This document shows positions 3,001 to 26,769 of a stretch of DNA of 27,312 nt, one piece after another. The stretch covers positions 1 to 27,312 of the IMG/VR virus record IMGVR_UViG_3300028025_003228. One strand, 5' to 3'. A program made the translations under genes and the position numbers. Each line of letters opens with the position of its first letter. The first letter of the stretch is position 1. Under the pieces are notes generated by a model, which saw only the letters and a program-made list of their open reading frames with translations, did not search any database and was not told where the DNA came from. The DNA is from a virus.

Positions 3001-3605
3001 GCATTCGCATGAGCAAAGGCAGCAGCAGCAGTGTTGACAGTATTGGCAATGCCAATCTCACCAGTGTATCGTGCTCCAGAGATATACACACTCTTCGTGC
3101 TAATACCCGATGGTAAATTAGTGCCACTAAAGTTTAGAACACCCGATTGATAATCAAAGAACCATTCTTCACCAGATGCCGTTGCAAATAATTCTGTTCC
3201 AGTTGTATTAGATGTCGTGCGACCAGCATTATCCAAGAATACACGAACTGAATAGGTCGCACCAAATTCAGGACTAATCCAATTTTGTGATCCAGTTTGC
3301 CATGTTCTATATGCAGTTGCACTTCCAAGTTGACCTCGTTGACCAGGACCATTAGTGCCGATTGGTGTCTGTGGCATCTCCAAAGTAGCATCAGGTCTAT
3401 AAACCGTAACAATACTTGTGGTAGTTGCGGGAATAGAACTAGGAATACTTGATGATTGAACTAAAAGACTATCACCCCTGATTTGGAGTGGACTAGGCAG
3501 TGCCTCGTTCGTGGCATCTTTGTTCGCTGTAGTATCTGTTTTAGTAGCAGCATAACCTATCTTCTTCCAAAGATAGTCTACTTTTTGGGTATCTGAAATG
3601 GCCAT
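60..3605 (-). CDS. Giant repeat tail-fibre protein (1181 aa), TQNNSI/ANAAF coiled-coil repeats
   Basis: Probable long tail-fibre or fibre-shaft protein. Residues 1-190 form a non-repetitive head that starts MAISDTQKVDYLWKKIGYAA, a head type I recognise from marine T4-like fibres and probably the virion-attachment end. The rest is a shaft of ANAAF and TQNNSI motifs. I count 21 TQNNSI copies and seven NSYITYNEAV-type linkers. Three beta modules that start GG.(I/V).GDV interrupt it at about 423-470, 666-760 and 881-930, and a fourth starts at 1159. The repeat fits heptads with Phe or Leu at a positions and Ile at d, so a trimeric coiled coil is likely. The start ATG overlaps the previous stop as TAATG, which suggests coupled translation with the 1757-residue fibre. 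The protein ends GGTF* just after the fourth module begins, so it has no obvious receptor-binding tip. Function is inferred from composition and context; no enzyme motif is visible. Confidence 0.88.
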   Translation of the reverse strand: MAISDTQKVDYLWKKIGYAATKTDTTANKDATNEALPSPLQIRGDSLLVQSSSIPSSIPATTTSIVTVYRPDATLEMPQTPIGTNGPGQRGQLGSATAYRTWQTGSQNWISPEFGATYSVRVFLDNAGRTTSNTTGTELFATASGEEWFFDYQSGVLNFSGTNLPSGISTKSVYISGARYTGEIGIANTVNTAAAAFAHANAAFTAANNATDTYVRNHANAAFDAANAATATDATQNNSITAAFFHANAAFANANSYITYNEAVSVTQNNSIASAFVHANAAFTAANNATDTFVRNHANAAFDTANGAVAVNTTQNNSITVALDTANAAFSNANSYITYNEAVSVTQNNSITAAFAAANAATATDVTQNNSITSAFIHANAAFASANTIDGVNTTQNNSIASSFVHANAAFTRANNSLNANTGGQITGDVIVIGNVSANIVSTTGSNGIISGANAIFANYVYAANGNVDLYIYATKAFDVANAATGGSATDSFARNQANASFTAANGAVAVNLTQNNSIDSAFIHANAAFLAANNATDTFVRNHANAAFDTANGAVAVNLTQNNSITVALNTANAAFSNANSYITYNEAVNVTQNNSIAAAFLAANAATATDATQNNSITVALDTANAAFAAANAATGGSAADSFARNQANAAFIRANNSLDANSGGTISGDVVINANLTVTGNTTYVNTINQLIGDNIITLNADLGQVSQPTQDAGFEIERGIQPNSSFLWIESTGKWAANNGNTSIYVASEATLTAAYDTANAAFDAANAATATDATQNNSISAAFVHANAAFASANNIDGVNTTQNNSIASAFIHANAAFANANSYITYNEAVNVTQNNSIGAVFLQSNNNVGVDLTQNNSIAAAFTRANNSLNANTGGTVNGDVIFVGNVTSNTLTTTGSNGSITGANAIFANYIFAANSNVDLYIYATRAFETANAATGGSATDSFARNQANGAFTAANGAVAVNLTQNNSIAAVFIHANAAFANANSYITYNEAVNVTQNNSITSAFIHANAAFASANNIDGVNVTQNNSIIAAFDAANAATATDTTQNNSITAAFYHANAVFANANSYITYNEAVSITQNNSIAASFIHANAAFANSNTYITYAEAVSVTQNNSITAAFLAANAATATDATQNNSITAAFIRANNSLDANNGGTISGDIVITGNLTANIVGGTF

Positions 3606-11077: not shown

Positions 11078-12160
11078 TTAAATCGTAATTGTTCCAGTGC
11101 CTGTAAAATCAAAGTGTCTATAACCACCTGAATTATGATAATACATGTCTCCCCCACTTACACTTGTAGCATTTGCAAATTGTTCTGAACTCCATCTAAC
11201 AATACATCTACCACCAGCACCACCACCACCATCTCTGAAAGGGTCACCTGGTCCTTGACCACCACCACCTCCACCTGATCCAGAGAATTGAACTCCACTA
11301 TTTGCTTGTCTTATTGTTCCATTCGGTCCACCAGGATTTCCACCATCACCACCAGTCTGAGGATAACCAGAACCACCACCAGAAGACCCACCATTTCCTC
11401 CTGCTCGTCCATCACCTGCTATTCCACCACCACCTCCCGCACCAAGAATATCACTCGATATACCTGCTGGTCCGTATATAGGATGTGTAGGAGCATTGGG
11501 GTATGGTTTAGACATTGGCGGTCTATAACTAGTATCATATGAAGAGACTAATTGAGTTATAGCAAATCCATTACCACCACCACCACCACGTTCAGGTCCT
11601 GACTGACCATCACCTCCAGTATCTTGTGTTCCACCACCACCGCCTGCACCACCACCTCCACCACCAGAATTACCATTACCACCACGGCGACCATTTCCAG
11701 GACTCTGTGTGGCGTTACCGTAACTTGGAGTAAGTGTTGTATCCCTACCACCGCCGCCACCACATCCACCATCACGACCAGCACCATCACCGTTACCGCC
11801 AGCATTACCTCGGCCACCACCCCCACCACCAAAAGCAGTTATAGTAGTAAATCCTGGAAATGAAGAAGTAATCGAAGAATCTCCACCTTGACTTCCACGT
11901 GATGATGAACCTGGACCCATACCTGCACCACCACCTCCACCACCAATATTGAAAGTAAAAGTAGCACCTTTAGCGACAGCAAATGAACCTGTGATTACAC
12001 CACCAGAACCTCCAGCACCACCTCCTTGTGAACCACCACCTCCTCCACCTGCTATTAGCATGTATTCAATAACGTCAGTGAATTGAGTTAAATTTGCACT
12101 TTCCGAAAGAACTCTACTTGCACCGAATGATCTATTCGAAAATGACGAAATGATTGGCAT
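11078..12160 (-). CDS. Poly-glycine tail-fibre adhesin-like protein (360 aa)
   Basis: Residues 1-35 form a short leader (MPIISSFSNRSFGASRVLSE). EYMLIAGGGGGG then opens a long glycine-rich region to about residue 310, with many GGGGG runs separated by short Ser/Asn/Pro/Thr segments. A C-terminal GRCIVRW strand and a YRHFDFTGTGTITI end follow. This layout matches the glycine-rich domain found in many phage fibre proteins and recalls the Gly-rich motifs of T-even gp38 adhesins, which form polyglycine-II bundles displaying receptor-contact loops. Homology to gp38 itself is not claimed. The start overlaps the stop of the 389-residue fibre as TAATG, with GGTGGAG nearby, so the two are probably made together. 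The coding DNA is rich in GGT and GGA repeats, prone to in-frame length change. Confidence 0.85.
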   Translation of the reverse strand: MPIISSFSNRSFGASRVLSESANLTQFTDVIEYMLIAGGGGGGSQGGGAGGSGGVITGSFAVAKGATFTFNIGGGGGGAGMGPGSSSRGSQGGDSSITSSFPGFTTITAFGGGGGGRGNAGGNGDGAGRDGGCGGGGGRDTTLTPSYGNATQSPGNGRRGGNGNSGGGGGGAGGGGGTQDTGGDGQSGPERGGGGGNGFAITQLVSSYDTSYRPPMSKPYPNAPTHPIYGPAGISSDILGAGGGGGIAGDGRAGGNGGSSGGGSGYPQTGGDGGNPGGPNGTIRQANSGVQFSGSGGGGGGQGPGDPFRDGGGGAGGRCIVRWSSEQFANATSVSGGDMYYHNSGGYRHFDFTGTGTITI

Positions 12161-13329
12161 TACTGCACTCCACCTGGACCCATACCAGAACCGTTTGCAT
12201 ATCCGAAAGTTGTATTACCAACCATAACAGTGTATGCAGAATCAGCAACTTTTATGACTGTAATATTATATACGTCTAATGATTGTGCCTGAGTTGATAG
12301 TTGAGATGGTTGTGTTGCACCCATCCAGTATACACTACTCAGAGGATTTACGCCATCAATAAAAACATTTGCTCGATATTTCGTTACACCTTGTTTCAAT
12401 GCAATAGCAAGAGATGCTGTTTGACCAACACTCAATAAACTATTAAGTGAAGTGGTCGTATTTCCAACAAGATTGAACGTGACTGAACCAGTAGTATTCG
12501 CAACAAAGTAATATGCTGTTGCTTCCGCTACATGGATGTTATAGTTTCCACTGATTGGAGTTGTCTGTACATTTACAGTCTCAGCAATACGAATTGTGGA
12601 TAATGTTAAATTTTGGGATAAAGATCCTGAACCCACACCACCACCAGCAAAGTTATTTGCAGAGATGGCACCAGTGCCAATCAAATTACCTGTGATAGAA
12701 AGTGCAACAATACTGTTACTAGCATTAATAGAATTAATAGCAATTAGGTTACCAGTAATCTGACCAGCAACAATGTTATTACCACGAATAGCAGTATCGG
12801 CAATTAAGTTACCAGTAATCTGACCAGCAACAATGTTATTACCACGAATAGCAGTATCAGCAATTAAGTTACCAGTAATCTGGCCAGCAACAATGTTATT
12901 ACCACGAATAGCAGTATCAGCAATCAGATTTCCTGTAATTGTGCCAGCAACAATGTTATTACCACGAATAGCAGTTATACCAAGTTTGTTGCCTGTAACC
13001 GAACCATCTATTAATTTTACTCCACCAATACTTCCATCGACTAATTGATTTGAAGTGACTTGATTATAATAAATGATGCTTTGTGACTTATATCCGACTT
13101 GAATATTGTTTGCACCAACAGAAGGTGCTTCGGTAAATGTGATTACTCCACTCGACACACCATAAGAAGCATAGGGTTCTTGCTGTACATTATTTACAAG
13201 AACTTCCAAATAGTCTGGATCACTAATCGGTTGGGAAATTGAAAACTGTGTACAAGCTCCATCACCGTTAAACTTTTGAACGGATAGAGTATTGAAACCT
13301 ATTTCTGGTTCATTTCCAATGTAAGCCAT
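12160..13329 (-). CDS. Tail-fibre protein with MAYIGN head and decapeptide repeats (389 aa)
   Basis: Three parts are visible. Residues 1-90 are a MAYIGN head (F.GDGACTQFSIS, LVNNVQQEPYASYGVSSGVITF, VGANNIQVGY). Residues 92-230 are short repeats of the form xxI.GN.Ixxx, including TAIRGNNIVAG.ITGNLIAD repeated almost perfectly. This is likely an elongated beta-solenoid or triple beta-helix shaft. Residues 235-389 are a domain common in marine phage fibres: NLVGNTTTSLNSLLSVGQ, VFIDGVNPLSSVYWMG, SLDVYNITVIKVADSAYTVMVG. The protein ends in a Gly-rich tail. AGAGG lies before the ATG, which overlaps the previous stop as TAATG. It is probably a peripheral fibre working with the poly-Gly protein encoded next. 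Confidence 0.88.
   Translation of the reverse strand: MAYIGNEPEIGFNTLSVQKFNGDGACTQFSISQPISDPDYLEVLVNNVQQEPYASYGVSSGVITFTEAPSVGANNIQVGYKSQSIIYYNQVTSNQLVDGSIGGVKLIDGSVTGNKLGITAIRGNNIVAGTITGNLIADTAIRGNNIVAGQITGNLIADTAIRGNNIVAGQITGNLIADTAIRGNNIVAGQITGNLIAINSINASNSIVALSITGNLIGTGAISANNFAGGGVGSGSLSQNLTLSTIRIAETVNVQTTPISGNYNIHVAEATAYYFVANTTGSVTFNLVGNTTTSLNSLLSVGQTASLAIALKQGVTKYRANVFIDGVNPLSSVYWMGATQPSQLSTQAQSLDVYNITVIKVADSAYTVMVGNTTFGYANGSGMGPGGVQ
12741..12980 (-). repeat. Four tandem 60-bp repeats inside a fibre gene
   Basis: Four units begin at 12741, 12801, 12861 and 12921. Units 1-3 differ at only one or two bases per neighbouring pair. Unit 4 is diverged in its first third but keeps the core caatgttattaccacgaat. 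Each encodes two decapeptides, GQITGNLIAD and TAIRGNNIVA. Confidence 0.95.
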
Positions 13330-13674: not shown

Positions 13675-14220
13675 TTATCCTAATGCTATAGCAAATGCAA
13701 TTGCTGAATCTTGTATTGCTGAAATTGAACTGTATATTTTAGTATTTGCTGCTCCACTCATTATTGCTACATTAGCATTTGCGAGTGTGGAAAGTCCAGT
13801 AACATATAAAGTTTCTGCGATATTTGCCGAACCCGATATAGTTAGGTCATCAAATCCTATTGAATCAAGAATGATATTACCAGTAACATTTACATTACCA
13901 GTAACAAATAAATCCTGTCCAACATAAACATTCGATGTAACATTGAGTGTTGCAACATTACCTGGAATAGTAATATTACTTCCAGCAAAACTAATGTTGG
14001 CAATGTTCGCAGTATTGGCTTGCAGAGTGTTGATGTTCGCATGTGTCTTTACATTCAAACTAGCAGTATTAGCATCACCAGAAATTTCAATGTTGGTGTT
14101 CGCAACAAAGATTGAACCATTACCATCAGTAAGAAGATTGACAGTACCAATTACAGAATCAGTAGATGCCATCCACTGTAGGAATGTATTCGAAGTCGTT
14201 ACTCTATTAATTGCTGGCAT
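13675..14220 (-). CDS. Fibre-like structural protein with GN/NI strand repeats (181 aa)
   Basis: Residues 1-30 read MPAINRVTTSNTFLQWMAST, a start common in marine phage fibre-like proteins. Residues 30-130 have short strand repeats rich in N, I, V and G, ending VYVGQDLFVTGNVNVTGNI. The tail (FDDLTISGSANIAETLYVTG... AIQDSAIAFAIALG) is hydrophobic. The LFVTGNVNVTGN stretch resembles the beta module of the giant fibres, so a triple-stranded fold is likely. The ATG comes one base after the stop of the 74-residue gene (TAAGATG); the ribosome site is weak (GATGAG), so translation is probably coupled to that gene. Confidence 0.82.
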   Translation of the reverse strand: MPAINRVTTSNTFLQWMASTDSVIGTVNLLTDGNGSIFVANTNIEISGDANTASLNVKTHANINTLQANTANIANISFAGSNITIPGNVATLNVTSNVYVGQDLFVTGNVNVTGNIILDSIGFDDLTISGSANIAETLYVTGLSTLANANVAIMSGAANTKIYSSISAIQDSAIAFAIALG

Positions 14221-14448: not shown

Positions 14449-17400
14449 TTATCCTCTAGGCAAAGCAATTGCACGAAGTTCTTTGAATCGTGGAACATCC
14501 ACAGAACTTTGACCATAAAGAACAACTTTGATTGCAAAAGTTCTAAAGTCGGAGAATGTAGTAGAACCTGAAGTGTAATTAATATAATTGTCAGGAACAT
14601 TACCAGTACCAGGAGCAAATGTCAATTCACGATAATCACTTTCATTCGCCGAAACAAATGTAGTGTTATTCAGTTGTGTCATTATAGCCCAGTTTTTGTC
14701 TTCAAATGTTTCCGAATCACCAGTTGAAAGAACCTTATAGTAAACTTGAATACCCGATAGTGGAGGTAGATACGTTGTTAGATACACACGTAAATCTTCT
14801 GAATCAAAACCTTCTGCTAATGTAACTTGTTTTGTGAAGTAACGAATTGCAGAGTTGCCACCCGACCTCTTATTCTCACCATTGTATGACACAACTGCAC
14901 CTGAACCACCGCCACCAGAAAGTGTTATTGTTGGTGATGTTATGTATCCAGTTCCAGGAGATGTAATAGTTACAGCAGTCACGACCTCATTAGTAACAGT
15001 AGCAACAGCAGCAGCACCTGCTCCACCACCACCAGAAATTTCTACTGTTGGTGTTGATGTATATCCAGTTCCACCACTAGAGATAACCACATCTGAAGTT
15101 TTTAATGGTAGATTGTTAATTTTGTTTTCAACCGCCAACCAGTTCAATCGTGTTTTATCAATCATTGGTGACACATCTCTGTTTTGAGTTGCCATCGTAG
15201 CACGAATCGTAACAGTAGTATTACCAGTTGTTTTGTTTAACACACGACGATCATATCCATCAACCATACGATAATCCACAAATGGAATTATAGGCAAGTA
15301 TGAGTGAGAAGTATTGCCAGTAAATTGCTGTGATATAAACTCATAATTAACCGAAGTATTTGCAAGAACAACATCAGTGGTCATAAAATGTGCCAAGTCA
15401 TATGCAGTATCAGAAGCAATCGTTGATGTATCTGCTTCAAAATGTGCAAGAGCAGTTGCGGTCGTAAATACTTTTTTATGTAAACTAAACATCATTGATG
15501 TTACTGGTGTTGGAATCCAAGTTGAACCATTTTGTGATTCAAACAACGAACCCACATACGGAATAGCACTGATGTTATTATTATCAATAAAATTCTTTTC
15601 ATCTTTTTTCGCACAATATAGATTATACGAATTAGAGTTAGAAACAAACACAATTGAATGCTCACCAGGTTGCAAGAAAATTGGAGCATCAAACACAAAC
15701 TCAGTGTATTTGGTTACATCATTCAAATCTGGTTTTGAATTCGGTGCAACTGTTTTTACTTTATCGGGTGTTAGTGTTACGGTAGCAAACGGATAGACTG
15801 TTCCTGATGATGGGAATCCATTCACCGTTGGTCTAATTTGCATTGTAACAGGAACTGACACATCCTTTGTTTGGAAACATACACGAACACTCGACAAGAA
15901 CATACCTTGTGGATATTGATACGAACTTATCAAGAAGTTTTGAGCCAATGGGTCATAGTATGTTTGAATTTGTTTTGTTGAGGAACTAGAGTTACCTTTA
16001 ATCGAACTTCTTTCACTAGTTCTCTCTTCAGAAACACTACTTCTAATTACAGATGGAACAAATACAGAAATAGATTGTTCCTGAACTGTTTGTACAACTC
16101 CTTGTGAGAAGAATGTAGCATCACCATTCGTTGATGATGATTCAACCAATCCAGTTTGAACATCAATTAATCTAAAATGTTTTTCACCAACACGGAACGT
16201 ATCTCCAGGAATACTGAACACAACGGATATTGCACCCTCTTCTGTTGTCTGTGGATCTCCAATTGTATAAGTGGAAGTAGTATCAGGAACAGTAGTCCAC
16301 GGTGTCGATACTGTCAACGTGCGTGTAGTTGGATTGTAGTCAGAAATAGTTCGTTGCTGTCCAGCACCAGTTCCACTACCAATCGTAACAGTTTTACTTT
16401 GATAATTACTTTGTGTGGCATTCGTTGCATTACCAGCATTGTAATTCAAAACCATTGCTGTGCTGTTTGCTGAAATGGCTCTTCCACTAAAGTGTTGCCA
16501 ACTAGCGAGTTCTGATGAAGTACCAGTTATAGTACCAACAACTTTGACATTCGAATAACCTGTCCACGTTCCAACACCAGCAACGGTGTCAATATTAACA
16601 ATAAATGCATTTTTAGCTGATGTTTGAATAATGAAACCAGTTCCCAAAACAACATTTGTGTCAGTGGTTCTAAATGTAACTTGTTCCGAATCACCAACAG
16701 TTGTTTGATATTGTAAATTGTCATTCTTAAACACGAACTGATTGACGTTAGTAATATATTTTGACACATCAACATTATCAAAGAATGAAAACAACGGTGT
16801 CAAAGGTTTGAATGCTGTGCCTGTAACCAGAATAGTTTTCGCTCTCATGTAAGGAATGATGCTTACATCAACAACTTTGTCACCCAATGTTTTAGTTAAA
16901 GTTGTTGGAACAATTTGTGACAGAACACCTGAACGTGATTCATTTGTAGTTGTAGTAACTAGTGATGATGAAGTTGTTGTTAAAGTCTGTTCATCAAATT
17001 TAGTTTTACCTTGTTTGCCTGGACCTTGAACAACTTGATCTATACCTTTAGTAATTGCTTCTCGAGCTGTGATGGGTTTTGTCGATGCTGTTGTTCTCGA
17101 TGTTCCACCAATTTCTGTTTCATTAGTTACACCTGTCCATGTTGTTTTCCATGCACCCCACGATGTGCTTTGAATTGATGACCATGCATCTGCTGCCGCT
17201 GAACCACCAGTTAAATCAACAACTTGTGACTCAACTCTTGTTTGTGAATTCCAAACATCCGAAGATGGATAAAGGTTTACTTTACCAAGATAGTTAATCC
17301 AATTGAATGGATTAACATTGATTGTTTTGGATGCCAATGGTTGTGATAACCAAGTTTCAGTTGTTGATTTACACGTTATCATTGGACCACTATATTCAAC

Positions 17401-20400
17401 ATTAACATCAATTGATGCTGTGGTATTTGCTATATCAGTATTGGAGAAAATCCCAACTGCTGTAATATTATATGAACCCCTAGCTTCATTATCGACAACA
17501 TCAATAGCAGCAGAAAAATCACGACCAGTAAAATTGGCAACAGATTTATCTACAAATGAATCAACAACAATACCATTTTTAAATCGTGGTAAATTCTGCG
17601 AGTCCAGAATAGACAAATCTTGTTTACCCATCGTTGCTATCTCAAGCAATGATAATGAAGTATAATATTCCAGATTTTCAAGTCGTTTTTCTAATCCACC
17701 GATGTCTTTCATCGTGTACCGTTTATTGCGAACACGATCAATTTGTGTCGTAAAAGGGTATTGTAAGTATGCTGGATAATTGAGAACATAAAGAGTCATT
17801 GCATCTTTAGGTTCTACTGGAGCAACAGGATTTACTCCTGGAATGCCAGGTAACACTTGAAGTTTTCTATCTGTAGTGAGAACAACTCTATCAACACGTG
17901 GTAGATAGTAACCATAACTTATGATGAAGTCACTGGTGCTCAAAGGAATTTTTGGTCCAGTAGTAGTTTCATTGACATCAAACACAAAGTTATTTGCTGA
18001 GTATGCAGTCGTTGCATCTTGTCGAACTGGTCTAAAATCTAAAGAATTTTTAAGAGATAGTCTTCCACTATTTTTTGATGAGTATTGTGGTATTTCACCA
18101 TAGGTGAAATTACCGTCACCCAATCGTGTATACGAATCCACATTAAAGAATCCAGCACCCGATGATGTGAATCTATTGTAACGAACTAAAAGTGGACCTA
18201 CTGGAGCTGATTGTCCAGGAAGTAATCTAATTGCACCCCAATCATAATACGAATCTTTTTGTCCTGTAACCAAAGCATAACGTGATGTTACATTAATTGC
18301 TGAACCAGAATTTGCTGTGGTAATTGCTGTATTGCTATAATCGAAAATAGCATTAATGCAGAAAACATCAGTTACATATAAAGTTTGATCTACACCAGGA
18401 GTTTTGTTGACTAATCCTTGTGCGATGTGAGTTTGTCCATGTGGAATAAACACATACGCAGATGTATTACCCGAACCAAAAACTGAGTTAGCAACTACTT
18501 GAGTTTGAACAGCAGTATTGGCACGAATGTACGTTTTAGTTTTTGATGTTGGGTTGGTTGAGCTAATAGTAGCATATAGATTGACAGTCATGTTGCCACC
18601 ACCGAACACAGAGATAGTTCGTGCTGTTGTATCTACAGTAAATTGCCCCGAAGGTACTAATTGTCCTGCTTTATATCCACCGTCAGGACCAGAATTAGTT
18701 CCCGCTGCTGTACACACTACTGTATAGTATTCTGATTTGGCAGTATTGGTTGTTGCTGATACAAGTGTTTCACCCGAACCAACAGTCAATGCTGTTGTAA
18801 CACCAGCAGCTAAAGTTACTCCTTGATATAATCTCTCATACTCATAGTTGAAGAATGAAGTTGCATTATCAGATATATTTGAATCACCCAAACTAAAAAT
18901 CATAGGTTCTAATTGTTGTTCTGAAACATATGTGGGTGTATATAATGATGCAGTATCCCTTGAATAATTATGTACATTTGCACTAGTAATAAGTGTAGTT
19001 CCAGAATAGACTGCTAATGATTCTGCTTGACCAAAGTCAAAATCAATTACAAAACGAGATTGCGTATTGATTGCGGCAGAGAAAGCAGTATCTACGGTTA
19101 CAGTACGAGTAGCACCAGTGTATGAAGCAATTTTTCTAGTTCCATCTGTAGCACCAGGACCAGAAGTCATTCTAATTGTTGCGCCCTGATATGCATTATC
19201 TGTGAGTGAAAATAATCCTGGTAATTGGAATGTTGTAGCAGTGCCGTTGTTATAAACTGCATATCCACTAGAGTTGGATGTTGTAGTATCATACAACGAA
19301 CCAGTATTGATATCAGCAACATAAACTGCATAGACAAAAGCACTGCCATTGGATGCATTTGATGTTGAATCATATGACATCGCTTTGATTTTAGCAGTTC
19401 CAATTTTCGTGTTTGCCAAAAGAAGAGTATTACCAGTATTGACTGATGCAGCATCAACACAATGAATATCTACTGTTCCATACAGATTAGTTGGAAGAGT
19501 ATTATACATGTTATTGGCATAGATATATCCACCATAACCCGAACTTAACCGTTTATTATCTACGTTTGCTTTGGTTCGTGGTTTAGGAACGGTTAGTGTT
19601 GTTGCCGATATTGTGCCAAACTCATAACCTTTGACGTAGGCTTTACCAGGAGATAGTGTAATATCTAACTGTGCAGTGTTACTTGCATTGGTATCCAGAC
19701 CAATGTCAAATTGTCTGACAATATAATCACCCGATTCATCATAAGTTCTACGAGCAATAGTTTCTTCAATCTTACCCCATATTGGAGTTTCTACCGATGA
19801 AATCAGTTCTCCATTAACAACTCTCGCAATTTCAATAAATTGAGTTTTATCTATACTGTCAAGTGGACGAGTATTTAAAGTTAGTTCAATATTGAAACGG
19901 TCAGCACCAGGTGCTTGGAAATTAGATGCGTCTTGAGCAGGATCAAGTAACGAAGTATCTTGACTATTATTAACAATGCTTTCAGTGACATCATAACCAA
20001 CTAGAGCATTACCAGTTGCGCTATATTTGTTAATAGCAACAGACGCATCTTGAGTTGTAATGAAGTAACCACCATAGTAATACACACCAGCAGTAACAGA
20101 CCATGCTTGACAATTACCCATTGCACCATTGGAAGTAGTATTTGCAAAGTAGGTAATTGCTTCTACATCAGCATTTGCTGTGTAAATTGTTTCTGTATTT
20201 GCAAATCTATCACCAAATACCTGATTAACGATCAGAGTGATGGGTTGACCATTTGCTGTAACTGGATCGTAAGATTTAATTACATATGCTCGTTTCGTAT
20301 TGGCAGCATTTTGAATAATCTTACCTTCAAAATTTCCAGCAGCAATATCAGTTGAAGCATATGTTGAAGCAATATTAATATACTGAACAGTCTGGAAGTT

Positions 20401-20604
20401 GTTTTTACCACCAGTAACAACTGAACCAGATTGAAACATATAATCACCAAACTTATTAATTTGGTCTTGTAGGATTGTCTGTTGTTGGGTTAGTTCACGT
20501 GCCTGTACAGCATATCCAGGTTTGAAGAGTATGCGATGATAGTTCTTCGCATCATCGAAGTCATCATAATATGGGTCTATATTAAAATTTGTATTAATAG
20601 CCAT
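14449..20604 (-). CDS. DUF4815-family giant baseplate/fibre protein (2051 aa)
   Basis: The N-terminus (about 5-66) has the DUF4815 signature: FNIDPYYDDFDDAKNYHRIL, FKPGYAVQARELTQQQTILQ, then FGDYMFQSGSVVTGG. Related proteins follow gp8 in many marine T4-like phages and are called structural or tail-fibre proteins; their exact place in the virion is not settled to my knowledge. Two copies of a small beta module (G..DGTRKIASYTGATRTVTV type) lie near 472-522 and 1402-1450. A conserved block near 1546-1650 reads YYDPLAQNFL, then VRVCFQTKD..VPVTMQIRPTVNGFP. Residues 1842-1905 hold two GxGY glycine-rich modules, followed by a C-terminal domain ending FKELRAIALPRG. AAAGGTTAGTTA precedes the ATG, 10 bases after gp8. 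It is unusually long for a baseplate component and may replace T4 gp9-gp12 functions; that is inference. Confidence 0.87.
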   Translation of the reverse strand: MAINTNFNIDPYYDDFDDAKNYHRILFKPGYAVQARELTQQQTILQDQINKFGDYMFQSGSVVTGGKNNFQTVQYINIASTYASTDIAAGNFEGKIIQNAANTKRAYVIKSYDPVTANGQPITLIVNQVFGDRFANTETIYTANADVEAITYFANTTSNGAMGNCQAWSVTAGVYYYGGYFITTQDASVAINKYSATGNALVGYDVTESIVNNSQDTSLLDPAQDASNFQAPGADRFNIELTLNTRPLDSIDKTQFIEIARVVNGELISSVETPIWGKIEETIARRTYDESGDYIVRQFDIGLDTNASNTAQLDITLSPGKAYVKGYEFGTISATTLTVPKPRTKANVDNKRLSSGYGGYIYANNMYNTLPTNLYGTVDIHCVDAASVNTGNTLLLANTKIGTAKIKAMSYDSTSNASNGSAFVYAVYVADINTGSLYDTTTSNSSGYAVYNNGTATTFQLPGLFSLTDNAYQGATIRMTSGPGATDGTRKIASYTGATRTVTVDTAFSAAINTQSRFVIDFDFGQAESLAVYSGTTLITSANVHNYSRDTASLYTPTYVSEQQLEPMIFSLGDSNISDNATSFFNYEYERLYQGVTLAAGVTTALTVGSGETLVSATTNTAKSEYYTVVCTAAGTNSGPDGGYKAGQLVPSGQFTVDTTARTISVFGGGNMTVNLYATISSTNPTSKTKTYIRANTAVQTQVVANSVFGSGNTSAYVFIPHGQTHIAQGLVNKTPGVDQTLYVTDVFCINAIFDYSNTAITTANSGSAINVTSRYALVTGQKDSYYDWGAIRLLPGQSAPVGPLLVRYNRFTSSGAGFFNVDSYTRLGDGNFTYGEIPQYSSKNSGRLSLKNSLDFRPVRQDATTAYSANNFVFDVNETTTGPKIPLSTSDFIISYGYYLPRVDRVVLTTDRKLQVLPGIPGVNPVAPVEPKDAMTLYVLNYPAYLQYPFTTQIDRVRNKRYTMKDIGGLEKRLENLEYYTSLSLLEIATMGKQDLSILDSQNLPRFKNGIVVDSFVDKSVANFTGRDFSAAIDVVDNEARGSYNITAVGIFSNTDIANTTASIDVNVEYSGPMITCKSTTETWLSQPLASKTINVNPFNWINYLGKVNLYPSSDVWNSQTRVESQVVDLTGGSAAADAWSSIQSTSWGAWKTTWTGVTNETEIGGTSRTTASTKPITAREAITKGIDQVVQGPGKQGKTKFDEQTLTTTSSSLVTTTTNESRSGVLSQIVPTTLTKTLGDKVVDVSIIPYMRAKTILVTGTAFKPLTPLFSFFDNVDVSKYITNVNQFVFKNDNLQYQTTVGDSEQVTFRTTDTNVVLGTGFIIQTSAKNAFIVNIDTVAGVGTWTGYSNVKVVGTITGTSSELASWQHFSGRAISANSTAMVLNYNAGNATNATQSNYQSKTVTIGSGTGAGQQRTISDYNPTTRTLTVSTPWTTVPDTTSTYTIGDPQTTEEGAISVVFSIPGDTFRVGEKHFRLIDVQTGLVESSSTNGDATFFSQGVVQTVQEQSISVFVPSVIRSSVSEERTSERSSIKGNSSSSTKQIQTYYDPLAQNFLISSYQYPQGMFLSSVRVCFQTKDVSVPVTMQIRPTVNGFPSSGTVYPFATVTLTPDKVKTVAPNSKPDLNDVTKYTEFVFDAPIFLQPGEHSIVFVSNSNSYNLYCAKKDEKNFIDNNNISAIPYVGSLFESQNGSTWIPTPVTSMMFSLHKKVFTTATALAHFEADTSTIASDTAYDLAHFMTTDVVLANTSVNYEFISQQFTGNTSHSYLPIIPFVDYRMVDGYDRRVLNKTTGNTTVTIRATMATQNRDVSPMIDKTRLNWLAVENKINNLPLKTSDVVISSGGTGYTSTPTVEISGGGGAGAAAVATVTNEVVTAVTITSPGTGYITSPTITLSGGGGSGAVVSYNGENKRSGGNSAIRYFTKQVTLAEGFDSEDLRVYLTTYLPPLSGIQVYYKVLSTGDSETFEDKNWAIMTQLNNTTFVSANESDYRELTFAPGTGNVPDNYINYTSGSTTFSDFRTFAIKVVLYGQSSVDVPRFKELRAIALPRG
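14890..15081 (-). repeat. Two GxGY glycine-rich modules in the DUF4815 protein
   Basis: Residues 1842-1905 read GGTGYTSTPTVEISGGGGAG then GTGYITSPTITLSGGGGSGA, a tandem pair of about 32 residues each. The same pattern occurs in gp6, the gp7-like protein and gp8. Confidence 0.85.
16252..16398 (-). repeat. Beta module copy 2 in the DUF4815 protein
   Basis: Encodes VTIGSGTGAGQQRTISDYNP, TTRTLTVSTPW, DTTSTYTIGD. It matches a module at 19039-19186 in the same gene (IRMTSGPGATDGTRKIASYT, then ATRTVTVDTAF). Confidence 0.7.
19039..19186 (-). repeat. Beta module copy 1 in the DUF4815 protein
   Basis: Encodes the first copy of the module described at 16252-16398. Shared pattern: G.G...G..R.I..Y...TRT.TV, then a closing strand. 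Confidence 0.7.
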
Positions 20605-20614
20605 TAACTAACCT

Positions 20615-22183
20615 TTAAAATCTAACAATGAGTTTTATATTTTCTGCTTGACCCTCTGTGCGAGTCGTTTTTAGTGCATTTTCGGTATACAGAATATCTC
20701 CTGTATATGGTTCAAATTCTGGATTAGAACCACGAACAACAATCCTGGATGTACCAGAGTTTGCGCCCGTTAAAGAAAGACCAGTTAAAAAAGTTCCCTG
20801 TATGTGAGTCAATTTAACAGTATTTGTAGACTGATCTATAACATGTCCATAGGCGATAGCATTATTTGCTGCCGTTCCCTGATAAACATATTCATTTAAT
20901 GCATATGCTGTTCCTGAAACTACTGTAAGGTCAGTGGTTTGTGAAATGAAAGAATTAGCATTTGCATTTGTGACAACTGAGGATTCCCCATATTTATGTG
21001 GGTTTATAATAATCCCAAATTGTCTGAATGTAGTATTTGCTGAAATTTTACCATTCTCAGTCGTATCAATTTCACCAATCCTTGACGATACCATCACATT
21101 TGTTCCACCCAATTCTTTGGATGGGTTATATGCATGTCCAAATTTTGGAGACACAATACAACGAACATTGGCAGTATTAGCACCAGTTCCTGTTCCATAC
21201 ACATACGCATTAGCACGGCTATATCCAGTTCCAATGGTTGTTATTGTAACTTTGGATAGGTTGCCAGTGGTTGAACCAGAAAGAACTGGAACTGCAACTG
21301 CACCAATGCCATCACCGTCAATATAAATCCTGGTGGTTATTGATAATTGATTTGCAGCAGTTCCACCACCATTAGCAGTAACAGAACTTGATAATGTTAT
21401 TTTATTATTTGGTATATCTAATGATGAAATGTATGTTTGTGACGGAATACCCAAACCAGAAACTGTCATATTTGCCACCACATTTGTTGTGTTGGCAAGG
21501 GTAAGAATAGTACATCCTGTGGCATACGATGCAACGGTAACATTATTATGGTAGTATGCTGAACCTTTATTCACTACAACGATGGTAGTCAATTCCCCAT
21601 CAACAACACCAAGATTACTTACACTGTAATCTAACTGCGCCGTAGAAACTGGTGTTGGAATCCAGGCATCTGCCAGGAATTTATTGGATGGTTTGACATT
21701 GTACATGTACTTCCAGATATACCCATCAGCAGTTGCGATATTACCATTCGATGACGTATAATCACCAGTGGGTTCTACTGTGGAGTTTGCAGAGGCATTA
21801 TTAGACAAACACTTATAGACGTTACGTGCCGATGTATATGCATACATTGGTTTTAAATTTTGTGAAACATTTGCTGAAAGCAAATCAGAAGTTGCAATAG
21901 TGTCATCATATTGACGATACTTTGTATTTGCAGTCCACGTTACTTTGGGAATGACCAGTTCAACATCGTTGCCAGTGATTCGTTTGGCAGCCATCATATT
22001 ATCCCAAGCATCCTTCTCATCGACAACTGTATCAACTATGGAATCGGGAGATGATTCGTTGGCATACACCAAATGGTTGCCTACAAAAACATATCCGACA
22101 GTAAGTGCTGCTTCAGTGAAGCTCTCCTTAAACTGTTCGGCAGCATTGAATGCTAATTTTTTAGTTGTTACTGTTGTGGGCAT
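20615..22183 (-). CDS. 8: Baseplate wedge protein gp8 (522 aa)
   Basis: Homologue of T4 gp8, a dimeric protein of the baseplate wedge that sits on gp6/gp7/gp53. Diagnostic blocks: the N-terminus with VGYVFVGNHLVYANE, then KRITGNDVELVIPKVTWTAN, GYIWKYMYNVKPSNKFL and WIPTPV; the C-terminus with HAYNPSKELGGTNVMVSSRI, TTFRQFGIIINPHKYG and LYTENALKTTRTEGQAENIK. T4 gp8 is 334 residues. The extra length lies mainly at about 199-346, where glycine-rich GxGY modules and a separate inserted module (218-284) are found. The ATG lacks a strong ribosome site (AGAG four bases away), but GATAAATA lies seven bases upstream. The stop is 10 bases before the DUF4815 start. Confidence 0.94.
   Translation of the reverse strand: MPTTVTTKKLAFNAAEQFKESFTEAALTVGYVFVGNHLVYANESSPDSIVDTVVDEKDAWDNMMAAKRITGNDVELVIPKVTWTANTKYRQYDDTIATSDLLSANVSQNLKPMYAYTSARNVYKCLSNNASANSTVEPTGDYTSSNGNIATADGYIWKYMYNVKPSNKFLADAWIPTPVSTAQLDYSVSNLGVVDGELTTIVVVNKGSAYYHNNVTVASYATGCTILTLANTTNVVANMTVSGLGIPSQTYISSLDIPNNKITLSSSVTANGGGTAANQLSITTRIYIDGDGIGAVAVPVLSGSTTGNLSKVTITTIGTGYSRANAYVYGTGTGANTANVRCIVSPKFGHAYNPSKELGGTNVMVSSRIGEIDTTENGKISANTTFRQFGIIINPHKYGESSVVTNANANSFISQTTDLTVVSGTAYALNEYVYQGTAANNAIAYGHVIDQSTNTVKLTHIQGTFLTGLSLTGANSGTSRIVVRGSNPEFEPYTGDILYTENALKTTRTEGQAENIKLIVRF
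21146..21589 (-). repeat. GxGY modules in gp8, one split by an inserted module
   Basis: Residues 199-346. The first half of one module (VVVNKGSAYYHNNVTV) and its second half (IYIDGDGIGAVAVPVLS) are separated by residues 218-284. A complete second module follows (ITTIGTGYSRANAYVYGTGT). Confidence 0.75.
21332..21532 (-). repeat. Inserted strand module within gp8
   Basis: Residues 218-284 carry GCTILTLANTTNVVANMTVS, GLGIPSQTYISSL and NNKITLSSSVT. The pattern M.VSG.GIP..T.I.S......ITLS is one I recognise as a stand-alone small module in other marine phage structural proteins. Here it interrupts a GxGY module. Confidence 0.7.
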
Positions 22184-22189
22184 AATCTC

Positions 22190-22197
22190 TATTTATC
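22190..22197 (-). promoter_or_regulatory. Late promoter-like GATAAATA abutting the gp8 start
   Basis: The minus strand reads GATAAATA, fitting NATAAATA, and overlaps the stop of the upstream gene. Only six bases separate it from the gp8 ATG. If it is active, the transcript would start at or next to the ATG. Confidence 0.4.
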
Positions 22198-24724
22198 AAG
22201 AACTTGTGGTTGAAATGAAAATTGTTTGGTAATTTGCGTATTGTGTAAATGGACTTGATACGGTTAGGACTGTATTACTTTGAATAGAACTGATGGTTCT
22301 AATCTGATTGTTTACAGAAATATGTGAACCGATGGTCAGGATACCTTTAGTGTTTGCTATGTTGAAACGAGTATTTATTCCAGTTACATAAATGGATGAA
22401 TTAACATTTACTGTTCCAGATATCGTTATAAAACTAACATTTGCGGTATCAATAGTATTACCAACGATTTCACTAGTCCTGTTATAATTCGCATAGTTGA
22501 CGAATCCAACTGGATGTAACAACTCCTTCAATATCTTCTTATACTTAGTGAATTCCACAGTCGAAGAAGTTACGTATGAATAGTCAATGTAATACTTTGA
22601 ACCCGCTAATCTACGGTCAGCAGCAGACAGAATGGATTCGGTGCTTGTCCATCTTCCATCCGTTGCCAAATACGATCTTTCAATCTCAGCATTAGCAGTA
22701 GCAGTCCCACTGCCTTTGCCTGATAAATCTACAATCGGCAAGAATTGATATCCAGAACCAGGACTAATAATCCTTACACTTAGAATTGATCCTGGTTGAG
22801 CAATGGTGTTGGCAGCAGATAATTGTTCACCATCCGATGCCAAAGCAGTTATCTCAATATTGGCAGAAGAACCAGTGGGTGATGATATGGTTACTTGTGG
22901 AAAACTATTTGATACATAATTTATGCCACCCAAAGGTAGTTTATCATACAGTCCAACTTTTCTATTTGTTGCGGTAGTTAGGAATGCGACATTGACACGC
23001 ATTGATGTGTTAGAATAAATTGTGTCAACAAAACGAGATTCATTGTTAATAACAACCCTATCATTTACTTTCAACTCATCACTGAAGAATGTTCCTGTGC
23101 CTGTCACGTATGCATTAGTAGAGACGATATTCGCAGTTCCCGCAATTCTTGGCGGTTGAATTTCAATACGAGTAACTGCTCCTGTGCCACTTACACGTGA
23201 AACTACTGCGGCAGCTCCAGACCCAAAACACATACGTGGATTTGGTCCAAATATTACTTCATCTCCAGGAATATATCCCGACCCACCAGAATTTACTTTG
23301 AATCGACCTATCGAACCAAACCCTTTAGTTGTGTGAGTAAAATTATTATTTGATGTTTGATAGGTAGCACCCACAGCATCAAGCACTGGTGTTATGGTTG
23401 TGGGAGTAGTCGATAAAAGAATCTTTACATTAGTGATTGGACCGACTGTTAGATTCTGGAATGTCAGTGTATCTGATATTCGTGTATTTGCATTTGAATT
23501 AATAACCTTCTGTCCAACAAAACCATAGTTGGAATCTAAAATTGTCAGTGTTTGAAAATCAACAATTGTGTCAGTCGATACCGAATAGATATTTCCAGCA
23601 TTAGCACCAGATACATCTATACCATCAACCACAAGACTTAAAAAAGCAGATGCATTACCTGATACATTGATACCTGATGCATCAGTAAATACCGCACCTC
23701 CACTGTTCACATTAATACTATCAATGTAACCCTCAAAAACATCATCGATAATAGCAGTAGCATCAACGGTCGAACCACCACCACTAACCACCACAACATC
23801 ACCAACATTATAACTGTTACCACCATTTATGATATTGATTCTTCTAATGATAGAAAACGTAGTCGCTTGAACAGAAATTAAAACACCATTCGAATCTACG
23901 ATATCAGTGTTTACAACTTCACCATTTTGAAAGTTGCCTAGTAAAGTTTTTGTGCTGATAACCAATTCGATTGGAAGACCCAAGTTCAATTGGTCAGTAA
24001 TAATTCTTCGTGATGCTCTTTCCACAATAGCAGTAGCACCTGAAGATACTCCAGTTATTTTCCTGTTGTTCAACAAATCAATATTGAATGCTTGGTAAAC
24101 AATCCTGACAACTGAACCATTTGCTGGAGCAGTGTCAAATATAATCTTACGATATTCTTTGCGTAGTGAAAAACCCGATGATTGAACCACACCATTCACA
24201 TAAACAGTAATATCATTGTCGTTAGAAAATTGTGCCAGTATAAATGTTTTGACTGTTCCATCACACGTATAAACAGTTGCTATATCTTGATTGATACGAA
24301 GTTTATTATCTACTACCCAATTACCAGCAGAAGCACGAAGAACATTATTCTTTGGATAGATAATATCCAACTCTTCATCGAATAACATTCTGAATAAAAA
24401 CTTGAATGATTTTTCCGAACCTTTGGATAGGTATAGTGGTAGAACATTTTTTATTAATGTTGCTTTATCTACCCTCACATCACGTGGCAATAGATTGGCA
24501 TATGTGTTAAAAAAGTTATCTTCAAATTGGTCAATAGATGCATCAACATCAAAATTTGTTCTTAAATCTTTTGCAGCAGTAACTAAGTCATTGTTGGCAG
24601 AACTTTGTTTAGTCTCAAGAAATTCATAATATGCTTCAACAAAGTTTATAAATGTGGGATACTCATCCCTAATATATTCAGGGATTTGCCGACTTATAAG
24701 AACCGAAGTTTTTAGATTGCTCAT
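22196..24724 (-). CDS. Baseplate wedge protein, gp7-like (842 aa)
   Basis: It sits exactly where T4 gene 7 lies, between genes 6 and 8. The N-terminus (1-135) reads LKTSVLISRQIPEYIRDEYP, FINFVEAYYEFLE, LLPRDVRVDKATLIKNVLPL, KGSEKSFKFLFRMLF and ASAGNW. Residues 706-740 have AGSKYYIDYSYVTSSTVEFT and KKILKELLHPVGF. Both blocks are typical of the protein often called gp7 in marine T4-like phages. T4 gp7 is 1032 residues and the similarity to it is weak, so the name rests mostly on order. Three GxGY glycine-rich modules lie near 298-327, 476-511 and 650-683. Two copies of a third module type lie near 536-592 and 770-838. It probably forms the wedge core with gp6 and gp8. Its ATG overlaps the gp6 stop as TAATG. 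Confidence 0.85.
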   Translation of the reverse strand: MSNLKTSVLISRQIPEYIRDEYPTFINFVEAYYEFLETKQSSANNDLVTAAKDLRTNFDVDASIDQFEDNFFNTYANLLPRDVRVDKATLIKNVLPLYLSKGSEKSFKFLFRMLFDEELDIIYPKNNVLRASAGNWVVDNKLRINQDIATVYTCDGTVKTFILAQFSNDNDITVYVNGVVQSSGFSLRKEYRKIIFDTAPANGSVVRIVYQAFNIDLLNNRKITGVSSGATAIVERASRRIITDQLNLGLPIELVISTKTLLGNFQNGEVVNTDIVDSNGVLISVQATTFSIIRRINIINGGNSYNVGDVVVVSGGGSTVDATAIIDDVFEGYIDSINVNSGGAVFTDASGINVSGNASAFLSLVVDGIDVSGANAGNIYSVSTDTIVDFQTLTILDSNYGFVGQKVINSNANTRISDTLTFQNLTVGPITNVKILLSTTPTTITPVLDAVGATYQTSNNNFTHTTKGFGSIGRFKVNSGGSGYIPGDEVIFGPNPRMCFGSGAAAVVSRVSGTGAVTRIEIQPPRIAGTANIVSTNAYVTGTGTFFSDELKVNDRVVINNESRFVDTIYSNTSMRVNVAFLTTATNRKVGLYDKLPLGGINYVSNSFPQVTISSPTGSSANIEITALASDGEQLSAANTIAQPGSILSVRIISPGSGYQFLPIVDLSGKGSGTATANAEIERSYLATDGRWTSTESILSAADRRLAGSKYYIDYSYVTSSTVEFTKYKKILKELLHPVGFVNYANYNRTSEIVGNTIDTANVSFITISGTVNVNSSIYVTGINTRFNIANTKGILTIGSHISVNNQIRTISSIQSNTVLTVSSPFTQYANYQTIFISTTSS
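22211..22417 (-). repeat. Module copy 2 at the C-terminus of the gp7-like protein
   Basis: Residues 770-838: GTVNVNSSIYVTGINTRFNI, HISVNNQIRTISSIQSNTVL, TVSSPF. It matches residues 536-592 of the same protein. Confidence 0.7.
22676..22777 (-). repeat. GxGY module in the gp7-like protein (third copy)
   Basis: Residues 650-683: VRIISPGSGYQFLPIVDLSG then KGSGTATANAEIE. Same pattern as in gp6 and the DUF4815 protein. Confidence 0.8.
22949..23119 (-). repeat. Module copy 1 within the gp7-like protein
   Basis: Residues 536-592: NAYVTGTGTFFSDELKVNDR, VVINNESRFVDTIYSNTSMR, VNVAF. The shared pattern with residues 770-838 is V.G..T.F........I.....R.I..I.SNT.L.V...F. Confidence 0.7.
23192..23299 (-). 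repeat. GxGY module in the gp7-like protein (second copy)
   Basis: Residues 476-511: KVNSGGSGYIPGDEVIFG, then CFGSGAAAVVSRV. It is lengthened between the strand and the Gly-Ala segment. Confidence 0.75.
23744..23833 (-). repeat. GxGY-type module in the gp7-like protein (first copy, NSY variant)
   Basis: Residues 298-327: IINGGNSYNVGDVVVVSGGG then STVDATAIID. It keeps the Tyr and Gly-rich loop but has N-S-Y in place of G-x-G-Y. Confidence 0.7.
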
Positions 24725-26769
24725 TATTGCTCTGAAATCATTACAGTTGAAATGGAAGTCGGATCATCACCATCAATAGTTATAATGGTATTCCTATTGG
24801 TGCTAACCACTGTATTTTCTGCCTGTATAGTAAATCGAATATATCCATCAGGAGAAGAGACAGAAGTAATTCTAATGTCGTTGATTGTCAAAGTTCCTAA
24901 GTTATAATCAATGGTTCCTGCATTAGAGTTGACAATTTGTCTTTCGGATAATTGATTATAATAAACTGTTCGCAGTGTACCAGTTCTCGAATCAATTACT
25001 GGAATGGCAGTTGCACCATATCCACCACCATCAGAAATAGTAACAATAGCACGTGTATAATCAATGCCTCTATTCACCATTTCAATTCTTGCAATTTTTC
25101 CATTGACCACAATTGCAACTGCTTCTGCACCAATACCATCACCAGAAATAGTTACTGTTGGAGGTGAAATGTAATCAACACCAGCATCCAAGACTTGAAT
25201 ATTTGAAATTCCCGAAAATGATTGTGGAATCTCTTCAAACTGAACTTCTTGTTCTGCTCCCAAAGCATCTAAAGTTTTGAAGAAAGTGGATGTCAATCTA
25301 TTGCCAATCGTTCCTCTACGTAAAGGTATATTAAATTTTACACTATATGGTTTAATTGATATCAGTGAAGGCAGTAATCTTTTCTGAACACGAAGAGCAC
25401 TTTGCGTTCCGAAAAATGCATTCAAGTTTGTACCATCAATTGCTTTTTGAAGTTTCGATAAAACAAACTTTGAAGAAAATTTATTAAGATAGAGATTACT
25501 ATAGTTTAAAATAGTATTTCGTATATTTGTTTTCAACGCACTTTCAGTCAACGATGTTTTTCGTGCATCGTATCGTACTGTGCTGTCAATCAACAAATAT
25601 AAAAACTCTGGATCACGAATAATAACGTCAGTAGAAACCACTGCTTTTGGTTTGATAATCTCATCAATAATTCGTTGCTTCTCCGCCTCTGAAATATAAT
25701 AGTTTGTTTTAGGTTTCAATGAAATGAATACTTTACCATATACTGGTTTCTCTTCATCCTCTCCACCCCACACCGAAATAGAATCCAGTGAAGTATAGTT
25801 TTGCAAAATGTACGTCTCATAATCCTTAAATGTAATCAAACGATTTTGAGTGGCAAACTGAGATGCAGTAGAAAACTTAATTGAGTCTACACTTTCACGG
25901 TCAGAACCACCCGCAGAAGGTGACACAACACTCACATCAATAGTAGAAAGACCATTGATAGTTGAACCTGCTGTGAAATTATTTGCTCTATTAGAGACAG
26001 CACCAGATGTAATGAGATAACTCATATTCACTATTGCACCATCAGTTAATGATTGTCCTATTACATTGTCACCGAAACTAACTTTAAATTTTCCATCATT
26101 AGATTCATTTAAAAAATAAACCAATGAAGAACCAGTGACATCAAGAATGTCTGATACTAAATTATATGTCTGTGCTGCGGTGTTTCCCGAAGTAGGAGTT
26201 ACAGTAACTCTGAGTGTTCGTGTATCAATGTTTGCATTCGGAATAGTAAATACCGATTTGGGATTTGAGATAGCATTATAGGTCTGTGAAAAATTTATAA
26301 ACTGACCTTCGTAGATGTCTATATTTTCAAAGAAATATTGTGTTCCAGTTTTAGATATAGTGACTGATTCAGTTGTTATGTAATTATATGAAATGCCATC
26401 AACGAGTTCTGAAAAGAAAGTGTATCCTCTTGGAAGAGTAGCAGTATCAGCATCAGTTGTTGTTGAAGTAACAGTTACATTGACAGTTGCTTTAGGGGCA
26501 GTAACTGAATAAGGAACATAGTTGAGTGTCTTGGCATGTGACACTACGGCATCACGTGTTGTAGCACTATCCAAGAACGATTCATTGGCAACCATATTCA
26601 AATAGTATGCATTGTAGTGAGTATTGTATGCAAGAATATCCAATAGAACATTCAGACCAGCACCCTCAAAATCGTAATCAGTAAACTCTGATTGCTGTCT
26701 TAAAAAATTCTTTAGATTGGTTTTGATTGTATCAAAATCAAGGTCTGTGACTTGTAAACGAGCAGCCAT
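24724..26769 (-). CDS. 6: Baseplate wedge protein gp6 (681 aa)
   Basis: Homologue of T4 gp6 (660 residues), whose dimers form the continuous inner ring of the baseplate and join the wedges. It belongs to the gp6/J-like baseplate family. Diagnostic N-terminal blocks are FLRQQSEFTDYDFEGAGLNV, LLDILAYNTHYNAYYLNMVA, NESFLDSATTRDAVVSHAKT and LNYVPYS. The middle has KFKVSFGDNVIGQSLTDG and NRLITFKDYETYIL, and the wedge region has VFISLKPKTNYYISEAEK. Two GxGY glycine-rich modules lie at about 521-593, in the C-terminal part. The ATG follows the gp25 stop directly (TAAATG), and the gp6 stop overlaps the next ATG as TAATG, so gp25, gp6 and the gp7-like protein are probably translated as a coupled set. 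Confidence 0.96.
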   Translation of the reverse strand: MAARLQVTDLDFDTIKTNLKNFLRQQSEFTDYDFEGAGLNVLLDILAYNTHYNAYYLNMVANESFLDSATTRDAVVSHAKTLNYVPYSVTAPKATVNVTVTSTTTDADTATLPRGYTFFSELVDGISYNYITTESVTISKTGTQYFFENIDIYEGQFINFSQTYNAISNPKSVFTIPNANIDTRTLRVTVTPTSGNTAAQTYNLVSDILDVTGSSLVYFLNESNDGKFKVSFGDNVIGQSLTDGAIVNMSYLITSGAVSNRANNFTAGSTINGLSTIDVSVVSPSAGGSDRESVDSIKFSTASQFATQNRLITFKDYETYILQNYTSLDSISVWGGEDEEKPVYGKVFISLKPKTNYYISEAEKQRIIDEIIKPKAVVSTDVIIRDPEFLYLLIDSTVRYDARKTSLTESALKTNIRNTILNYSNLYLNKFSSKFVLSKLQKAIDGTNLNAFFGTQSALRVQKRLLPSLISIKPYSVKFNIPLRRGTIGNRLTSTFFKTLDALGAEQEVQFEEIPQSFSGISNIQVLDAGVDYISPPTVTISGDGIGAEAVAIVVNGKIARIEMVNRGIDYTRAIVTISDGGGYGATAIPVIDSRTGTLRTVYYNQLSERQIVNSNAGTIDYNLGTLTINDIRITSVSSPDGYIRFTIQAENTVVSTNRNTIITIDGDDPTSISTVMISEQ
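24991..25209 (-). repeat. Two GxGY-type glycine-rich modules in gp6
   Basis: Residues 521-593: VLDAGVDYISPPTVTISGDG then MVNRGIDYTRAIVTISDGGG. Each has a DY turn, a valine strand, a Gly-rich loop and an Ala-rich strand. Confidence 0.8.

Follow-up and report, generated by a model that had tools for sequence, protein, structure and literature searches.

A two-unit glycine-rich module shared by four baseplate proteins of a T4-like phage fragment, and its likely kinship with domain I of the T4 sheath protein gp18

Results

The baseplate locus and its module-bearing proteins

The stretch of DNA analysed here (the window) is the entire 27.3-kb IMG/VR virus record IMGVR_UViG_3300028025_003228 (27,312 nucleotides), a fragment of a T4-like phage. 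Its minus strand encodes, in order, gp25, gp6, a gp7-like protein, gp8, and a 2051-residue DUF4815 protein, with the Pfam and PHROG matches of the first four, in this order, marking a T4-like baseplate wedge. The same wedge gene order is found in HTVC008M and P-SSM2, and the closest cultured relatives for gp6 and gp8 are the pelagiphages HTVC008M and Mosig. Our subject is a glycine-rich module present in four of these proteins:

24724..26769, minus strand: gp6 baseplate wedge protein, 681 residues, module host (Pfam Gp6-like_1st, E = 9e-22; phrog_219, 2e-152; gp6 in the PDB, 4.6e-39)
22196..24724, minus strand: gp7-like baseplate wedge protein, 842 residues, three modules (Pfam Baseplate_wedge, 8e-9; T4-like gp7 in the PDB, weak)
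20615..22183, minus strand: gp8 baseplate wedge protein, 522 residues, split module (Pfam Phage-Gp8, 1.5e-7; model against T4 gp8 1n7z, Z = 21.2 over 267 residues at 2.9 Å)
14449..20604, minus strand: DUF4815 protein, 2051 residues, module host (Pfam DUF4815, 1.5e-62; phi812 baseplate protein ORF65, 8e-41)

Anatomy of the module

The repeated unit of 36 residues runs from a hydrophobic strand through a GxGY turn, a PTVTI strand, and a GGGxGA loop to an Ala/Val strand, and the natural domain consists of two such units in tandem, with ~72 residues and six strands. The first-pass annotation of this DNA had described one repeat of about 30 residues in the four proteins; the repeat itself is real, and all sites lie at or a few residues from where it had been placed, with the natural unit instead being the pair, and with the gp8 copy split by an insert. 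The copies, with their matches to a pooled profile hidden Markov model (HMM), are as follows:

25000..25215, minus strand: gp6 module, residues 519-590, in units 519-554 and 555-590 (pooled HMM 519-588, E = 3e-21)
23645..23854, minus strand: gp7-like module 1, residues 291-360 (pooled HMM, E = 3e-20)
23084..23317, minus strand: gp7-like module 2, residues 470-547 (pooled HMM, E = 2e-16)
22670..22930, minus strand: gp7-like module 3, residues 599-685 (pooled HMM 645-685, E = 4e-11, and a weak half-unit 599-626, E = 0.16)
21518..21610, minus strand: gp8 module, start of unit 1, residues 192-222 (HMM 192-225, E = 8e-6; strands 198-205 and 213-217)
21335..21517, minus strand: nested domain of ~60 residues within unit 1 of the gp8 module, residues 223-283, a VSGLGIP.. 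beta domain
21152..21334, minus strand: gp8 module, remainder of unit 1 and unit 2, residues 284-344 (HMM 268-337, E = 1e-12)
14887..15096, minus strand: DUF4815 module, residues 1837-1906, two units (pooled HMM 1839-1904, E = 5e-17)

None of the remaining window proteins matches the pooled two-unit profile better than E = 0.018.

The structure model of gp6 places strands at residues 520-531, 538-543, 549-555, 558-566, 574-579, and 584-593, with a predicted local distance difference test (pLDDT) score of ~90 in this region. The second part of the split module in the gp8 model contains strands at 285-290, 296-301, 309-316, 324-329, and 339-344, and once the nested insert (~223-283) is set aside the series of six strands is the same as that of gp6, again with a pLDDT of about 90. 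The module probably folds as a small six-stranded β-barrel. Wedge protein gp8 contains a domain nested in another domain: its insert, with the pattern VSGLGIP..ISSLD..ITLSS, constitutes a second mobile beta domain, is missing from the gp8 proteins of HTVC008M, Mosig, P-SSM2, and S-SM2, and resembles tail-tube and tailspike beta domains in the model (~205-290, Z = 8-9.4).

Homology of the copies

For the pooled profile, 18 seed segments served as the starting set, with iteration over ~1,500 distinct open reading frames (ORFs) from the window, its metagenomic relatives, and reference phages, amongst which it matches 126 of 133 gp6, 126 of 132 gp7, 97 of 99 gp8, and 53 of 97 DUF4815 proteins, many of the latter being fragments. 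Profiles made from one family alone also find other families, with the gp6-only profile matching the window copies in DUF4815 (6e-12), gp7 (5e-4), and gp8 (9e-4), the gp8-only profile that in gp6 (9e-8), the DUF4815-only profile those in gp6 (5e-9) and gp7 (6e-5), and the gp7-only profile that in gp6 (8e-4). Not every pairing reaches the window copy, with those in gp8 and DUF4815 missed from gp7, those in gp7 and DUF4815 from gp8, and that in gp8 from DUF4815. Profile-profile comparison by hhalign links all six pairs at 72-99% (gp6-DUF4815 99%, gp6-gp8 98.5%, gp6-gp7 96%, gp7-gp8 72-79%). A failure of HMMs to cross-match, which the first-pass annotation had named as grounds for abandoning a common module, is therefore not what is seen, and on these profile comparisons we take the modules of gp6, gp7, gp8, and the DUF4815 protein to be homologous.

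The composition of the module raises the question of whether the likeness is a convergence of glycine-rich, low-complexity sequence rather than homology. The unit has a high content of G, T, A, and V, and single-sequence phmmer matches within the window are strong between gp6 and DUF4815 and weak for gp7 and gp8, such that family profiles are needed. Reversed or 20-residue-window-shuffled proteomes of the same set, of equal composition, nevertheless yield no matches below 1e-3, and a crude motif pattern occurs five times, whereas shuffled versions (n = 300) contain it 0.31 times on average and never more than 3 times. The G and Y columns are conserved, the two-unit build is ordered, and six strands are confidently modelled in two hosts, gp6 and gp8. 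Given the clean shuffle controls, convergence was rejected and is in our estimation very improbable.

Two technical choices bear on these searches. A profile made from four single units collapsed into short local matches and was replaced by the two-unit profile. A tblastn search with the bare module gave no matches, for which the low-complexity filter is the probable cause, and a consensus-like query of 75 residues was used for DNA-level searches.

Insertion and conservation

The conserved sequences flanking the gp6 module either adjoin directly or have an unrelated stretch between them in T4, HTVC008M, Mosig, P-SSM2, and S-SM2, and by this comparison the gp6 module is a clean insertion. The module is missing from T4 gp8 and present in the examined cultured gp8 proteins of Kyanoviridae. 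The profile homology, taken together with insertion relative to T4-like gp6 and gp8, upholds the proposal that hosts of different folds carry the same module.

Within the clade of the window the module is present in 125/125 gp6, 119/119 gp7 (module 1), and 91/91 gp8 proteins, and in 52 of the 53 DUF4815 homologs in which both flanks are found, with one clean absence (L168). Such fixation points to an old, retained decoration as opposed to a recent hitch-hiker. The gp6 module is also more conserved (mean entropy 0.97) than the protein average (1.12) and its flanks (1.28-1.38).

One alternative is that the module is a passive cement, a rigid filler that holds neighbouring subunits together mechanically and has no ligand of its own. 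Its fixation would suit this role, as would the placing of copies in gp6, gp7, and gp8, three proteins in mutual contact in the T4 wedge (PMC3004832). Close cultured relatives, however, form baseplates without the gp6 copy, one DUF4815 homolog is cleanly without its copy, and domain I of the T4 sheath protein gp18, the likely relative described below, makes no sheath-sheath contact (PMC3004832). We hence regard a purely passive role as fairly unlikely.

Carriers beyond the wedge

The first-pass annotation had proposed that neighbouring wedge proteins received the same decoration, which is correct for the wedge and too narrow, with neck, sheath, sheath-stabiliser, tail-tube, minor head, fibre, and bacterial proteins also among the carriers. 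Searched on its own against PHROGs, the module matches families of head closure Hc2, hub/lysozyme, tail-fibre, and large virion proteins, amongst others. Of the cultured relatives, HTVC008M, Mosig, P-SSM2, and S-SM2 all carry it in gp7 and gp8. The module is found in gp14 (neck) of P-SSM2 and S-SM2, in a gp15-like sheath-stabilisation protein of Mosig, in one tail fibre of P-SSM2 and one virion protein of S-SM2 (1,425 residues), in the Marzo sheath (residues 240-314), and in two metagenomic sheaths (L332 and L298), with one sheath stabiliser and one minor head protein as further carriers. Lambda-like (siphophage) tail tubes in Pseudomonas genomes give full-length matches to Phage_TTP_11 with the module inserted. 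The L332 and Marzo sheaths share a core that is ~45–50% identical and bear the module at different sites (98-224 and ~237-318 respectively), indicating separate insertions or moves.

The gp7-position protein of HTVC008M (L006:21436-24486) bears the RefSeq label 'head closure Hc2', a label that probably comes from the module linking it to the gp14 family.

Outside phages, two Bacteroidota loci (L214 and L236) encode SusD/RagB outer-membrane lipoproteins with the module at ~430-520, within the SusD_RagB match. These copies in glycan-uptake lipoproteins of the SusD type, and the location of others in baseplate and fibre proteins, would be in keeping with a cell-surface adhesin whose weak binding of sugars or ions helps the phage to stick to its host, as proposed for phage immunoglobulin-like (Ig-like) domains, and accessory domains of sheaths have likewise been suggested as adhesion aids (PMC9230969). 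However, sheath, tail-tube, sheath-stabiliser, and neck proteins are carriers too, the module scores above the cut-off of no Pfam family of carbohydrate-binding domains, and the conservation of the gp6 module above the protein average (entropy 0.97 compared with 1.12) is unlike that of a diversifying host-binding domain. An adhesin is in our view unlikely.

Relationship to domain I of T4 gp18

T4 gp18 matches the pooled profile at residues 102-157, which lie in domain I. With hhalign, the profile of gp7 modules aligns with gp18 domain I at 95.6%, compared with <0.4% for domains II and III. Thirty-one of 43 individual gp7 modules match Pfam Gp18_dom_I (PF22639), with three matching the next family, and the best single module scores 24.3 bits against a curated cut-off of 27 bits; a relative (G005) lies just above it at 27.3 bits. 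Module 1 of the window gp7 scores 14.4 bits, corresponding to E = 7.3e-4 over the 27-kb record, and is not a member of the family by that cut-off. A search of the PDB (177,635 distinct sequences) returns gp18 at domain I as its top six matches (E = 0.003-0.04), with the mixed profile returning nothing credible and the gp6/DUF4815 profile a weak levanase match alone (E = 0.1).

Position adds to these matches. The L332 sheath, which is 34% identical to T4 gp18, bears its module at residues 98-224 between flanks that bracket domain I of T4 (98-188), and the module is seen as an insertion both in this sheath, at the domain I site, and in gp6. Domain I also shows the two-unit pattern (PGSNYAVGD... 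and WTAEI-SSSSSG-LAAV) and six strands, the number predicted for the gp6 and gp8 modules.

Several observations weigh against this kinship. No direct match to gp18 domain I is obtained from the gp6, gp8, or DUF4815 modules (hhalign 3–5%), with Pfam Gp18_dom_I matched by none of 28 gp6/DUF4815 modules, and the chain to gp18 therefore depends on modules of the gp7 type and on their location in a single sheath. The Gp18_dom_I cut-off lies above most of the gp7 scores, including that of the window, and the E-values of the PDB search are modest. A profile made from module-bearing sheaths alone reaches T4 gp18 at only 0.05, and 44RR at 0.002. T4 domain I contains an added α-helix, absent from the modelled gp6 module, and little that is left of the GGGGxGA loops. 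When the whole models of gp6 and gp8 were used for fold searches, gp18 was not among the matches listed, which we do not count as absence since other domains filled the lists.

Weighing both sides, the kinship of the module with gp18 domain I is well supported yet unproven, and we consider it very probable from the profile matches and the common site. The first-pass annotation described T4 gp6 and gp8 as being without such additions, which holds, yet T4 itself probably has one distant copy, domain I of its sheath protein.

Further repeats and domains in the window

Other sequence features accompany the modules in their host proteins. In gp7, a repeat with the pattern YVTGxxTxF..I.VNN..R.V..I.SNT.L.V is present in two copies (residues 532-594 and 773-838; window 22943-23131 and 22211-22408), with the repeat also weakly apparent in the ORF at 13675-14220. 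The DUF4815 protein contains a motif of ~48 residues, GxGAGQxRxIxxYxxxTRTxTVxxxW, twice (474-522 and 1403-1450; window 19039-19185 and 16255-16398), with a cross-match of ~1e-3. Residues 415-486 of the gp8 model (window 20726-20941) superpose on T4 gp7 766-843 (1.5 Å over 66 residues, Z = 7.8), which suggests that gp7 and gp8 have a domain in common.

Elsewhere in the window, two large proteins of 1757 and 1181 residues (3605-8878 and 60-3605), with 36 AFxxAN motifs in each, are probably long coiled or fibrous tail-fibre shafts. A 389-residue protein (12160-13329) contains a tandem repeat of ~20 residues with four RGNNIVAG units, and a 360-residue protein (11078-12160), 34% glycine with long poly-Gly runs, is suggestive of the glycine-rich adhesins of phages.

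Discussion

The module described here is a real, ordered, and promiscuous accessory domain, which behaves in the manner of Ig-like domains and carries a different signature. The Ig-like accessory domains found in tailed phages are likewise promiscuous insertions in tail and sheath proteins, placed outside the conserved core (PMC9230969); the module differs from them in being a paired 36-residue GxGY/GGGxGA unit rather than an Ig sandwich. No Ig-like Pfam family is matched above its cut-off amongst 28 modules, with stray matches to Big_3_3 (0.045), PKD_5 (0.43), and TIG (0.51) from one member each. The module is not named as a family in Pfam or NCBIfam, and no description of it was found in the open-access literature, with subscription papers not covered and an earlier description therefore possible. 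Several PHROGs contain the same domain (phrog_460, Hc2; 438, gp8; 708 and 2885, gp7; 701; 5342; and 1922), however these are whole-protein clusters named for the host protein, in which the common domain is unannotated as a unit.

The genetics of T4 offer a view of what the module may do. Domain I of gp18 is an insertion that protrudes from the sheath and, in T4, the one phage for which this is known, contacts the baseplate and binds the long tail fibres when these are retracted, and the mutations G106S, S175F, and A178V, all in domain I, block fibre retraction (PMC3004832). The published numbering must omit Met1, as residues 106 and 178 are otherwise P and L; counting Met1, the mutated residues are G107, S176, and A179. 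G107 supplies the glycine in the GxxY turn of the first unit (PGSNY), with S176 and A179 lying in the Gly/Ser loop of the second (SSSSSGLAAV). Retraction mutations are hence found in both places of the glycine signature, from which we infer that the signature loops form a docking face.

We accordingly favour, as on balance probable, the reading in which the module is an accessory barrel distantly related to gp18 domain I that acts as a docking face on the baseplate. A two-unit, six-stranded barrel would have entered loops of virion proteins that have no other relationship to one another. The copies in gp6, gp7 (three), gp8, and the DUF4815 protein would surround the baseplate with several rings of this barrel, whose glycine-rich loops would dock or cement fibres and adjacent parts. 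Both the surface exposure and the docking function of the modules are inferred. The first-pass annotation had suggested a sugar- or ion-binding unit or a glue between neighbouring subunits; given how strongly the gp6 copy is conserved, and given the genetics of gp18 domain I, docking between proteins is more likely than sugar binding, although the SusD copies mean that docking of fibres cannot be the universal role.

A wider interpretation, which we hold tentatively and think nearly as likely true as false, is that gp18 domain I is an outlier of an uncatalogued, promiscuous barrel family, inserted repeatedly into ~10 classes of virion protein (gp6, gp7, gp8, DUF4815, neck, sheath, sheath stabiliser, tail tube, minor head, hub, and fibre), whose glycine-rich loops form a reusable docking face for tail fibres and other components of the tail.

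The promiscuous accessory domains of phages are known mainly as Ig-like, and the module would add another abundant class, distinguished by its own signature. It blurs whole-protein clustering by causing PHROGs of baseplate, neck, fibre, and sheath proteins to match one another, and a label such as 'head closure Hc2' on gp7 can stem from the common domain alone. If the link to gp18 is true, the genetics of fibre retraction in T4 would become a testable hypothesis for the decorations of abundant aquatic T4-like phages.

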